NCBI RefSeq assembly: GCF_011082085.1
Contig: NZ_CP041063.1
Span: 2,666,001-2,730,000 of the forward strand
Length of the DNA stretch: 64,000 nt
Reading direction: 5' to 3'
Source of the DNA: Bacillus sp. Cs-700
Lineage (GTDB): Bacteria; Bacillota; Bacilli; Bacillales; Guptibacillaceae
Below the pieces are notes generated by a model. It made no database searches. It was given only the letters and a program-made list of their open reading frames with translations, and was not told the DNA's origin. The translations under genes and the position numbers were made by a program. This document shows, in pieces, positions 5,662 to 48,891 of this stretch (within the stretch, counting starts at the first letter, position 1; every line of letters begins with the position of its first letter).

Positions 5662-7014
5662 TTGGATAACATCACGGATCTCTGGCAACAGGCTCTATCC
5701 GAAATCGAAAAAAAGTTAAGCAAGCCCAGCTTCGAAACCTGGCTCAAGTCTACTTCTGCAAACCGTATGGAAGGCGACACAATTATTATTACTGCCCCCA
5801 ACGAGTTCGCTAGAGACTGGCTTGAGTCACGATATTCAAGTTTAATAACGGAAACGTTGCTTGAGCTGACCGGAAGTGAATTACAAGCTAAGTTCATTAT
5901 TCCCCAAAATCAGTCAGATGCTGATTTGGATCTAGAACAAGCTATGAAAAAAAAGCCTAAGGGAAATCCGGCTCAGGAAGAACACCCTCAAAGTGTGCTT
6001 AATTCAAAATATACCTTTGATACGTTTGTTATTGGATCTGGAAATCGATTTGCGCATGCTGCTTCTTTAGCCGTAGCTGAAGCACCAGCCAAAGCGTATA
6101 ATCCGCTATTTATATATGGAGGAGTTGGGCTTGGAAAAACCCATTTGATGCATGCTATTGGTCATTATGTTATCGAGCATAATCCAAATGCGAAGGTGGT
6201 TTATTTATCATCGGAAAAATTTACAAACGAATTTATTAATTCCATTCGAGATAATAAAACCGTTAATTTTCGAAACAAGTATCGTAATGTAGATGTACTA
6301 CTGATTGATGATATTCAATTCCTGGCAGGAAAAGAACAAACGCAAGAGGAGTTTTTCCATACATTCAATGCTCTTCATGAAGAAAGTAAACAAATCGTTA
6401 TTTCAAGTGATCGACCACCTAAGGAAATTCCTACACTAGAAGATCGACTTCGATCACGATTTGAGTGGGGACTGATTACTGATATTACGCCTCCTGACCT
6501 GGAAACAAGGATTGCTATTCTTAGAAAGAAAGCAAAAGCAGAAGGTCTTGATATCCCAAATGAAGTGATGCTCTATATAGCCAATCAAATTGACACCAAT
6601 ATTCGTGAACTTGAAGGTGCACTCATACGCGTAGTGGCCTATTCTTCATTAATTAATCAAGATATGAATGCAGACCTTGCAGCTGAGGCGTTAAAAAACA
6701 TTATCCCCTCTTCAAAACCAAGGGTGATTACGATTCATGATATCCAAACTGTCATAGGAGATCATTTTTCAGTAAAACTCGAAGACTTTGCGGCGAAGAA
6801 AAGAACAAAATCTGTTGCATTTCCTCGTCAAATTGCCATGTACCTTTCGAGAGAGCTTACCGATTTCTCGCTTCCAAAAATCGGAGAAGAATTTGGTGGA
6901 AGAGATCATACAACAGTCATTCACGCACATGAGAAGATCTCGAAACTAGTGGATTCTGACCAAGCTTTTCAAAAGAAACTACAAGATATCGTCGAACAAC
7001 TAAAAAACGGATAA
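5662..7014 (+). CDS. dnaA: Chromosomal replication initiator DnaA
   Basis: AAA+ initiator that binds DnaA boxes and opens oriC. The 450-residue protein has domain I (about 1-85), a variable linker rich in K, E and Q (85-113), and the AAA+ core with Walker A GGVGLGKT (153-160) and Walker B LLIDDIQF (213-220). The C-terminal DNA-binding domain contains [11 protein letters not shown]. The start is TTG, eight bases after GGAGG; no better in-frame start is available. Origin sequences lie on both sides, and dnaN follows. Expression is probably autoregulated through the upstream boxes. Confidence 0.98.
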
Positions 7015-16960: not shown

Positions 16961-19889
<2,929 letters not shown>

Positions 19890-19946
19890 AAAAATATTGG
19901 AATACGTTGTGCGTGCTATCTAGTTTTCAGGGAATACCCTGTAAAG

Positions 19947-20107: not shown

Positions 20108-20182
20108 TATCTATAAAATATTGAAAACTCGCAAGAGAAAAAACTTCATGTCAAACAATCAAAACTTCTTCGAAAGCTACGT

Positions 20183-20300
20183 AGGGGTGGGAGAAGCAAG
20201 AAATTCGAGGAAGCAAGTGATGTCAGACCGGAGTGGATATTTGGAGATCCATGAGGATCTGGCAGCGCGCAGCTGACGAAGAAGTTCGCCGCTTATCGCG
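20183..20300. repeat. Unclassified structured intergenic element
   Basis: Between the operon 1 terminator and a decayed 5S copy. It has nested pairing: GTCAG (20222-20226) with CTGAC (20273-20277), enclosing GATCC (20246-20250) with GGATC (20255-20259). It contains no open frame. The pattern resembles short non-coding intergenic repeats seen in Bacillaceae genomes, but there is only one copy here, so repeat status is not shown by this window. Confidence 0.4.
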
Positions 20301-20384
20301 CCCCGTATGAGAACACGGAAGTTAAGCTCTAGCGCCGATGGTAGTTGGGGGATCTCCCCCTGCAAGAGTAGGACGTCGCTGGGC
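20301..20384 (+). pseudogene. Degenerate 5S rRNA fragment
   Basis: The 3' part of a 5S gene, from about CCCGT to the terminal GTCGCTGGGC, repeated after the intact 5S of operon 1. It lacks roughly the first 40 bases, has a gap before GAACACGG, and has lost two bases in the CTTCAG segment (reads CTAG). Its own copy of the rRNA terminator follows. The flank beyond that resembles the flank of operon 2, so this is a recombination or duplication remnant and not a working 5S gene. Confidence 0.85.
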
Positions 20385-20392
20385 AAAGAAGA

Positions 20393-20475: not shown

Positions 20476-20590
20476 CGTTCGCGGAATTAATCTCGAATTC
20501 GCGGGAATATCATGTGGAAGCGCGGAATAAATCCGATTTTCGCGGAAATATCTAAAAAATAGCGGAAATAGCCTCGAAAGACACGGATTT
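20476..20590 (+). repeat. Array of about 20-bp CGCGGAAAT-type repeats
   Basis: Six degenerate units recur every 20-24 bases, each with a core such as CGCGGAATTAAT, CGCGGGAATAT, CGCGGAATAAAT, CGCGGAAATAT or GCGGAAATA, separated by variable, T-rich spacers. The first 16 bases (CGTTCGCGGAATTAAT) recur exactly, on the opposite strand, at 31313-31328. The array ends shortly before the 3' end of yaaC. Confidence 0.65.
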
Positions 20591-31145: not shown

Positions 31146-31235
31146 GTGGAGGGAGGTGAAGGTGTCTCCATCTAGTGCTTTTTTATGAAGTGAAGCATAG
31201 CCTTTCTGAGCTTGATCGGCACTCGATTAGGGGGA

Positions 31236-31328
31236 ATTCGGCGATATTCTTGTTTTTTCCGCGAAAAGCTCATTTAATCCCGCGATATTCAGGATATATC
31301 CGCGAAAATGGGATTAATTCCGCGAACG
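31236..31328 (-). repeat. Second array of CGCGGAAAT-type repeats
   Basis: On the minus strand, units beginning CGCGGAATTAAT, CGCGGATATAT, CGCGGGATTAAA, CGCGGAAAAAA and CGCCGAATT follow each other every 20-24 bases. It has the same layout as the array at 20476-20590 and shares its first 16 bases exactly. It lies between the antiporter gene and the hairpin array. Confidence 0.65.
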
Positions 31329-31368
31329 AGCGTAAGGGCTCCGCTACTAAAGGCTCGTCTCCGTTTTT
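31326..31368. repeat. Truncated copy of the nested-hairpin repeat
   Basis: Only the outer part of the element remains: ACGAGC (31326-31331) pairs with GCTCGT (31353-31358), with the unit-terminal signature CTCCG plus T-run and a TAAA linker. It abuts full copy A. Confidence 0.55.
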
Positions 31369-31965
31369 CATGTCTAGCTGCAGCGCCCAGCCTCTCGATC
31401 GCTTCTCCCTATAAAATGAACACAAAACCGTGTTCTTTTTATAGGGCTCCAGCGCTTGTCGAGGCTAAACAGGCGCTTCCGCTTTTCATAGATCCAGCTG
31501 CAGTGGGCAGACACTCGGTCACTTCACCTTTTCATCCGAACACAAAGAACGTGTTCAAAGGAAAAGGCTCCAGTGCCTGCCGATTCTAAACGCCCGCTTC
31601 CGCTTTTCGTGTCTAGCTGCGCGGGCCAAATCCTCCGGCTTTTTCGCCCATTCGAATGAGACAAAAAGCGTCTCAATCTCTTGGGCTCCAACATCCTGCG
31701 GATTTAATCGGGCCCGCTCCGCTTTTCATAGATCCAGCTACGATTCGCAGAAACTCCGATATTTCACTCTTTCACCAGAACACAAAAATCGTGTTCTAGT
31801 TCAAGATTTCCAATATCTCCGTTTCTAAACGCTCATCTCCGCTTTTCATGTCTAGCTGCAGCGCCCAGCCTCTCGATCGCTTCACCCTATAAAATGAACA
31901 CAAAAACCGTGTTCTTTTTATAGGGCTCCAGCGCTTGTCGAGGCTAAACGGGCGCTTCCGCTTTT
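31369..31965. repeat. Tandem array of five nested-hairpin repeats (about 120 bp each)
   Basis: Five direct copies: A 31369-31486, B 31487-31607, C 31608-31726, D 31727-31846, E 31847-31965. Each begins with a CAT- or CGT-plus-(G)TCTAGCTGC or GATCCAGCT lead and ends CTCCGCTTTT or TTCCGCTTTT. Inside, up to five nested stems are separated by conserved linkers (TTC, CTCC, TAAAC). In A they are AGCGCC/GGCGCT, CTCGA/TCGAG, CGCT/AGCG, CCCTATAAAA/TTTTATAGGG and GAACAC/GTGTTC. The stems differ between copies but remain paired. No protein-coding content, transposase or CRISPR-like spacing is seen. The rest of the 31146-32062 gap contains the two neighbouring repeat features and the hpd leader. Confidence 0.88.
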
Positions 31966-32062
31966 CAATTAATGCGTTATGGCTTTAGCAGGTGTTCTTG
32001 AAAGGAAATGGAAAAAGCTATACGTTTAAGCTGAGTGACAAACTATTTTTGGAGGGATGATT

Positions 32063-48769: not shown

Positions 48770-48891
48770 CGAAAAGCGAAGTAAGCCGTTTAAATCCGAC
48801 AAGCGTTGGAAGCTTTTGAATCAGACGCGCTTTTTGCGTCAGAATCAAAAGGTGAAACGATCGAGGATTTGGCTTACGTAGCTGGACACAT
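48770..48891 (+). repeat. Nested-hairpin repeat inserted in the 23S-5S spacer
   Basis: 122 bp present in operon 2 and absent at the matching place in operon 1, so the boundaries are exact. Nested stems: GTAAGCC/GGCTTAC (48781-48787 with 48871-48877), AAATCC/GGATTT, CGTT/AACG, CTTTTGA/TCAAAAG and GACGC/GCGTC with a T-rich loop. Its linkers (GAAAAGCG at the start, GTTT, GGA, GTAGCTGGACA at the end) match the reverse complement of the tandem copies at 31369-31965. No target-site duplication is seen. It would be transcribed within the pre-rRNA. Confidence 0.88.

Follow-up and report, generated by a model that had tools for sequence, protein, structure and literature searches.

Among the closest described systems, elements derived from IS200/IS605 form single-strand hairpins, keep a short target motif on one side and leave no target duplication, and group II introns are ribozymes with a reverse transcriptase. 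ERIC elements are imperfect palindromes of about 127 bp found in 3' regions of enterobacteria, for which we know of no transposase, and bcr1 is accompanied by a TTTAT duplication. REP sequences are described as palindromes of 20-40 bp with GTAG or CGTC at one end, which occur in high copy number outside genes, in clusters or tandem runs, and are thought to be miniature transposons (PMC3733652). The same source reports that RAYTs bind single-stranded REP DNA, and that REP repeats without a linked transposase are known in many copies for the CGTC type (PMC3733652). The repeats bcr1-bcr18 of the B. cereus group are described as interspersed, intergenic, MITE-like and often transcribed in UTRs (PMC3446304), and group IIC introns as inserting just past Rho-independent terminators with a strand preference, so that genes are spared (PMC8919778). 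Two stem-loop families of Bacillus halodurans, Bhal-1 and Bhal-2, are given as 74 and 76 bp long, the latter containing CRISPR repeats (PMC2267715).

The DNA analysed here (the window) is a stretch of 64,000 nucleotides from Bacillus sp. Cs-700. At 31372-31966 it carries five direct tandem units, each about 117 nt long and forming a single long hairpin with interruptions, with the remnant of a sixth unit upstream. All lie on the plus strand. The remnant, 30 nt of the 3' end of a unit (31339..31368, direct repeat family D1), forms the left edge of the array and is followed by unit A (31372..31487, outer stem AGCGCC/GGCGCT), unit B (31492..31608, AGTGGGC/GCCCGCT), unit C (31611..31727, GCGGGCC/GGCCCGC, with a different tip), unit D (31732..31847, of a subfamily with weak pairing) and unit E (31850..31966, almost the same as A). 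The right edge is exact and equals CGCTTTTC, i.e. the end of unit E, and TRF reports a single array at 31339-31967 with a period of 239, i.e. two units. The initial annotation had described five direct copies of about 120 bp, each folding into a long interrupted hairpin; these are found as described, and every stem, tip and linker that it quoted is present in the sequence. Compared with its extent of 31369-31965, the array begins about 30 bp earlier on the left. It had stated that corresponding stems stay paired; unit D belongs to a subfamily whose outer and inner helices are paired only in part (0.68 each). A terminator-like match within the units was found at the tip hairpins of A and E only, and no long open reading frame occurs in any of the element's six frames.

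About 100 such units are present in the genome of Cs-700. A BLAST search with unit A listed 60 matches in this genome, nhmmer found 98 units or fragments in 28 fetched stretches plus the window, and a covariance model gave 100 listed matches from 150 scored candidates. When the genome was scanned together with 60 relatives, with at most 60 candidates scored per genome, the model matched 50 of the 61 genomes and 37 of the 48 genera. Among 398 genomes drawn evenly from the phylum and searched with stricter filters and nine candidates per genome, five had a match, all from the order of the window; seven genomes of this order were among those listed, two of which had no match, and no match was found in the rest of the draw. 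Carriers among the matches listed include Mesobacillus, Neobacillus, Metabacillus, Lysinibacillus yapensis and several Bacillus species. Three loci labelled Chryseobacterium sp. ISL-80 (L071, L109, L138) hold a Bacillus-type element on several contigs, a label that may be wrong. In L079, L107, L121, L130 and others we also note longer variants, whose units measure about 174 nt, as well as matches to the inner hairpin of about 50 nt that stand apart (80 of at least 120 loci were searched for these).

A match to a known family, which had been named beforehand as a refuting result, was looked for in Rfam and none was found: no family was reported for the array or the rRNA copy described below by gathering score and E-value, nor for the element in 12 loci of Bacillus sp. 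V3-13 by gathering score. Distant blastn searches of plasmid and phage collections with unit E and with a 167-nt form of the element gave no match. In the literature searched, which mostly excluded subscription journals, neither a description of the family nor any of four motif strings of the element was found.

The fold is well supported. On the plus strand, four array units and the rRNA copy fold 4.3 to 8.8 SD below dinucleotide shuffles, with none of 200 shuffles as low, and unit E, when its minus strand is folded as DNA, lies 7.2 SD below shuffles. Covariation was calculated from 74 units of the Cs-700 genome, chosen from 82 full ones. The alignment used for covariation (A2) had been fitted to the model, and counts of cells or of pairwise comparisons do not represent independent events. 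Paired cells made up 89.5% as opposed to 74.0 in shuffles, a value slightly flattered because the eight units set aside were two duplicates and six low-scoring copies. Double-sided changes were seen in 31 of 40 pairs (23.3 in shuffles) and in 540 cells (190.9 in shuffles), and the covariation score was 0.444 (0.168 in shuffles). The values for pairing, double-sided pairs and covariation score were each reached by none of 500 shuffles, and sliding the partners by 1-3 columns left 30-44% of cells paired, with scores of 0.049-0.127. RNAalifold alone predicted 29 pairs, 23 of them with double changes. The initial annotation had named many hits with significant covariation as support for a structured element family, and both the matches in 50 of 61 genomes and these covariation tests provide that support.

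All four helices are paired to at least 0.7, counting G-U as paired, in 152 of 203 distinct units of the genus; with the 3' halves reassorted, 18.4 such units are expected and the maximum in 200 trials was 29. Forty outer and 26 middle stems occur in 61 combinations in which both helices are paired. In other words, stem modules combine widely, with both arms moving together. There are also some unmatched chimaeras among the units, with the join at the tip, such as L024:1073 and L018:1033.

The kind of change seen between units depends on their distance. Among units one to four differences apart, 0.06 of the changed pairs are double-sided (9/157), and over successive distance classes, in which the pairwise comparisons overlap, the fraction climbs through 0.06, 0.25, 0.47, 0.59 and 0.71 to 0.75. 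The differences between close copies are single and mostly break a pair. Nearest neighbours, taken as 42 disjoint pairs, differ by 62 single and 12 double changes, with 1.9 doubles expected at independent sites and at most 7 in 500 trials. Change is less frequent where sites are paired, with 56 single-sided events over 718 paired sites versus 79 over 444 unpaired ones. Three of eight subfamily consensuses are perfectly paired (1.000; 26, 25 and 3 units with member means of 0.969, 0.966 and 0.982, respectively). Six of the eight lie above the mean pairing of their members, the others in this group being 0.919 (15 units, members 0.890), 0.921 (7 units, 0.891) and 0.842 (4 units, 0.836). The consensus of the largest subfamily, D, equals its members (32 units, 0.865 in both), and that of a subfamily with 3 units falls below its members (0.895, members 0.904).

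Single copies undergo ordinary decay, and the fold persists in the longer term. This argues against instant template switching and for a need of the fold at the time of spreading, to which the D subfamily, weakly folded and yet spread, is an exception. The array had been called the reverse of ordinary repeat decay, which fails for close copies, and the proposed mechanism that would by itself preserve palindromes (template switching) is not supported either, since recent differences are single-sided. Selection on the fold, the other proposal, is upheld in that distant units differ mostly by matched changes and that far more units keep four helices than expected; it is weakened in that only three consensuses are fully paired and that of the largest subfamily does no better than its members' mean.

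If selection acted on the RNA of one strand, G-U pairs should stand clearly above A-C mismatches, as in the control, tRNA stems, with 44 G-U versus 2 A-C (43 of 57 tRNAs kept). At strong pairs, the units of the Cs-700 genome have 23 G-U versus 35 A-C (p 0.15), and those of other genera 54 versus 19 (p 5e-5); over all pairs the counts are 79 to 93 and 152 to 80, respectively. Recent single changes in the genus, from overlapping comparisons, give 12 G-U and 76 A-C on the plus strand, and read on the minus strand, which is the sense of the gene that the array abuts, an A-C becomes a G-U. Unpaired positions likewise show an excess of G>A per site (11 events at 38 G sites versus 19 C>T events at 161 C sites), so the A-C excess of the genus may be a mutation bias. 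Derived changes at paired sites on the plus strand of genus units were 15 G>A versus 4 C>T. The sign of the G-U/A-C balance differs between genera and nowhere shows the strong G-U excess of tRNA, and this disagreement leaves the odds of selection at the RNA level unchanged.

One insertion is seen in an rRNA operon. A single copy of 122 bp lies between the 23S and 5S rRNA genes at 48770..48891 on the minus strand; it had already been pointed out as a further copy, and the unit model matches it at 48771-48887 in reverse orientation. The other rRNA operon of the window has the empty counterpart at 19885..19899 (junction 19894/19895), and comparison of the two sites shows a clean 122-bp insert without target duplication. 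Of the eight 23S-5S spacers of the genome, seven hold the element, in four cases one subtype and in three another, and the insertion points agree to within one A of an A-run. In L205 and L218 both subtypes stand in tandem, in opposite orders, and the spacers of G008 (L201, L222, L248) hold short derivatives that have kept the outer stem and lost the inner hairpin. Neither a terminator nor TTAW is found beside the element at the rRNA site. As a separate observation, a conserved stretch, CTTCGAAAGCTACGTAGGGGTGGGAGAAGC..., lies past the first rRNA operon at about 20160-20390 of the window; it enters the apparent 3' half of a second 5S gene and recurs after 5S in L195, L199, L207, L209, L235 and L250.

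Six identical copies were found at different places, four of them in Bacillus sp. V3-13. This strain (the genome of L061) has 12 full copies of 167 nt, in which the hairpin is extended by a tail of about 50 nt, with no more than 2 differences between any two. In all 12 the preceding letters are ATAA (10) or TTAA (2), and the far side has a run of five or more A; their flanks otherwise differ. TAA also occurs on the far side in 8 of 12, so that a 3-bp TAA duplication may have taken place in this strain. The minus strand of the element begins with GAAAAGCG right after WTAA, so that the order on the plus strand is a T-tract, usually that of an intrinsic terminator, then the element, then TTAW. 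A strict terminator test beside the element, applied to 11 of the 12 copies, was passed by 9. The adjoining terminator in L339 is that of a 6S RNA gene, and we therefore regard the edge of the terminator, rather than a stop codon, as the target. In many cases TTAW is, read on the opposite strand, the TAA stop of a convergent gene, which is why many arrays abut a stop codon, where insertion breaks neither gene nor terminator. Of 100 distinct flanks in other genera, 42 have TAA right before GAAAAGCG, as compared with only 9 of 78 in the genus of the window, where A-rich triplets are common (e.g. AAC, 14/78).

The placement of whole arrays follows the same lines. A gene stop falls -6 to 12 nt from the right end in 18 of 34 arrays of the Cs-700 genome versus 7 of 612 shifted controls, in 38 of 87 arrays of the genus versus 16 of 1440, and in 26 of 111 in other genera versus 60 of 1930; at the left end the corresponding numbers of arrays are 1, 0 and 1. 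Plus-strand terminators lie in the left versus the right flank in 18 versus 4 of 33 arrays of the Cs-700 genome, and in 59 versus 15 of 99 in other genera, the 59 being perhaps up to four too high on account of four impossible negative distances in the left flank, which come from arrays at locus ends. By a stricter test 15 of the 33 arrays of the Cs-700 genome have no terminator. Arrays run with replication in 25 of 33 cases (p 0.005) if the origin is placed, as we assume, from dnaA at window position 5662, and in 24 of 33 (p 0.014) with an alternative assumed origin. We judge this bias to be real and as expected from the terminators of mostly co-directional genes. One-ended insertion was considered because of truncated left units (of 11 partial hits, 10 lack the 5' part and stand left-most or alone); it is not supported by the 12 V3-13 copies, which have both ends alike. 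Six fragments in V3-13 say nothing about truncation, because all of them end at contig ends.

The number and type of units at a site are variable. The orthologues of the window locus, where a neighbouring protein is 97-99% identical among congeners, have three units in G009, at least four full units and one cut by the locus end in G011, four in G007, two in G006, fragments in G001 and a remnant only in G005, as compared with five in Cs-700; no unit was found at this locus in G003 and G010. Thirteen loci of the Cs-700 genome have orthologous flanks in G009 or G007, and at 12 of these, units or fragments are present in the relative as well, differing in number and type, the orthologue of L014 having no unit in this comparison. 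The L011 site has one to five units, fragments or none in congeners, and L025 has five near-identical units in succession. Most of the recent change between close species is within arrays and not at new sites. Ordered growth, with the newest unit at the TAA end, was tried as a model and rejected: right-most and left-most units of 23 arrays of the Cs-700 genome are alike in pairing (p 0.44) and in nearest-neighbour distance (p 0.22), and units common to species make up 20 of 56 on the left, 30 of 71 in the middle and 23 of 56 on the right. A second dispersed repeat of about 20 nt around CCGCG (e.g. ATTCCGCGATATT) often stands beside arrays; it occurs in the window at 31235-31330 and 20478-20547 and in the left array flanks of L015, L017, L023 and L027. 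Near-repeat runs of TTTGGCCAATATAT / TTTGGACAATAAAA are seen to the left of the L011 array in several congeners (L303-L315).

The Cs-700 genome encodes two RAYT-like Y1 proteins, at L029 (1246-1863) and L030 (1282-1863), with the repeat not nearby; their best NCBIfam model is REP_Tyr_transpos, and both score under its cut-off. Y1 matches occur in 55 of the 61 genomes and in 47 of the 50 carriers, the carriers without one being G026, G027 (30 units) and G057 (17 units). Element and Y1 counts are correlated weakly (Spearman 0.33, p 0.01 over 61 genomes; 0.24, p 0.11 outside the genus). V3-13 has five Y1 matches, some of them broken. No unit was found near the 37 Y1 loci examined (32 + 5, taken from a longer list), nor any insertion sequence with the element's ends near the Y1 genes of these loci.

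In comparison with the known systems, the element shares with REP sequences (PMC3733652) a short palindromic form, high copy number and a place outside genes in clusters and tandem runs, and differs from them in its length of about 117-167 nt, its nested hairpin with matched stem change, its fixed end GAAAAGCG without a GTAG or CGTC tag, and the lack of a transposase gene flanked by the element among the 37 Y1 loci. It may resemble elements derived from IS200/IS605: it has a hairpin, WTAA on one side in 12 of 12 V3-13 copies (a motif that is weak in the genus of the window) and no duplication at the rRNA site. Like group IIC introns it sits just after intrinsic terminators, in V3-13 at least (9 of 11 copies), and unlike them it is 117-167 nt long and has no open frame for a reverse transcriptase, and Rfam matched no intron at the 12 V3-13 loci. 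It is a MITE in the wide sense, being non-coding with many near-identical copies at different sites, and unlike a MITE of a DDE transposon its extreme ends are not inverted repeats and its rRNA site has no duplication. Three further families were compared by description only: ERIC, alike as an imperfect palindrome of 3' regions and unlike in being enterobacterial; Bhal-1 and Bhal-2, alike as repeated stem-loops in a related species (PMC2267715) and unlike in their listed lengths of 74 and 76 bp; and bcr1, alike in the features given above and set apart as B. cereus group-specific in a title cited by PMC3446304. REP/RAYT systems, DDE-type MITEs and introns each have a tested defining feature that the element lacks; in the way it works it resembles REP or MITE elements, and in its placement group IIC introns.

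In our view the array is probably a local cluster of a fold-back element that is mobile, non-coding and non-autonomous and occurs in the order to which the window belongs, because 12 near-identical copies in V3-13 share a target, and because rRNA spacers are filled or empty within one genome and orthologous sites differ in presence or absence. The initial annotation had not touched on mobility, on a target preference or on the link with gene ends and terminators. Against mobility it must be said that no insertion was observed happening and no enzyme was linked to the element, that the rRNA site lacks terminator and TTAW, that the TAA is weak in the genus of the window and 15 of 33 arrays are without a terminator, that the D subfamily spread with a consensus paired to 0.865, and that recent change is mostly inside arrays. 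A rival reading is that of old tandem repeats that change by recombination only, without transposition, and the units or fragments persisting at 12 of 13 loci, with change in number and type, and the five near-identical units of L025 would suit such repeats. We hold this to be very improbable, since in V3-13 single near-identical copies share a target at different places, one and the same genome has both filled and empty rRNA spacers, and some congeners have element-free sites. Still less credible is quasi-palindrome correction, in which template switching copies one arm from the other and gives matched changes without selection: matched double changes are indeed common between distant units, and the 12 doubles in nearest pairs exceed expectation, although singles prevail among these pairs (62) and hardly any double-sided change is seen among the closest units.

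The same covariation could reflect a cis-acting structured RNA of 3' UTRs and the rRNA spacer, selected on the transcript for decay, processing or termination. Its strength, the fixed orientation relative to the abutting gene, the copy inside an rRNA transcript and the G-U excess in other genera, which selection on RNA predicts and which counts against a purely mobile element, are all in its favour, as are the recent A-C changes of the genus if read as G-U on the minus strand. These genus counts may, however, be explained by mutation bias; the Cs-700 genome lacks the excess seen in tRNA and the sign differs by genus, unit number and type vary freely at orthologous sites, and only the tip hairpins of A and E resemble a terminator. 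We regard an RNA function as improbable. Membership in the REP/RAYT family, i.e. palindromes moved by a dedicated REP-associated tyrosine transposase, is somewhat less so and still unlikely. The two RAYT-like proteins of the Cs-700 genome (below the cut-off), the wide occurrence of Y1 matches with a weak correlation in number, and the reported binding of single-stranded REP DNA by RAYTs (PMC3733652) speak for it; the absence of units near the 37 Y1 loci, the three carriers without any Y1 match, the unit of about 117 nt instead of 20-40 bp and the fixed end without GTAG or CGTC speak against it.

If the array is a cluster of mobile elements, insertion would take place at the edge of a T-tract and TTAW, at the rRNA spacer without target duplication. 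The enzyme that moves the element may recognise the folded single strand. Our first guess, at somewhat less than even chances, is a Y1 transposase (IS200/RAYT-like) acting in trans; a putative second candidate, and a rather unlikely one, is the reverse transcriptase of a terminator-seeking group II intron. With recognition of the fold, mainly well-folded copies would found new subfamilies, and arrays may turn over by unequal recombination and gene conversion that keep the nested stem modules matched. The outcome would be compensatory changes between distant units together with decay of single copies. More tentatively, and with some doubt on our part, this may be a mobile DNA known to its enzyme mainly by shape, as a nested single-strand hairpin in which only short linkers and the ends are fixed, and which homes to the edge of terminator T-tract and TTAW, multiplies there into arrays and diversifies by swapping concentric stem modules, the two arms remaining matched.

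The genomes of many Bacillus relatives contain dozens of these small, gene-less and probably mobile elements, a high-copy family absent from Rfam that sits at gene ends, at terminators and in the rRNA spacer. Its placement looks like a further safe-harbour strategy at terminators, beside that of group IIC introns. The family makes it testable whether selection for mobility, acting on folded single-stranded DNA alone, can yield RNA-like covariation, a question that matters wherever covariation is taken as proof of a functional RNA.
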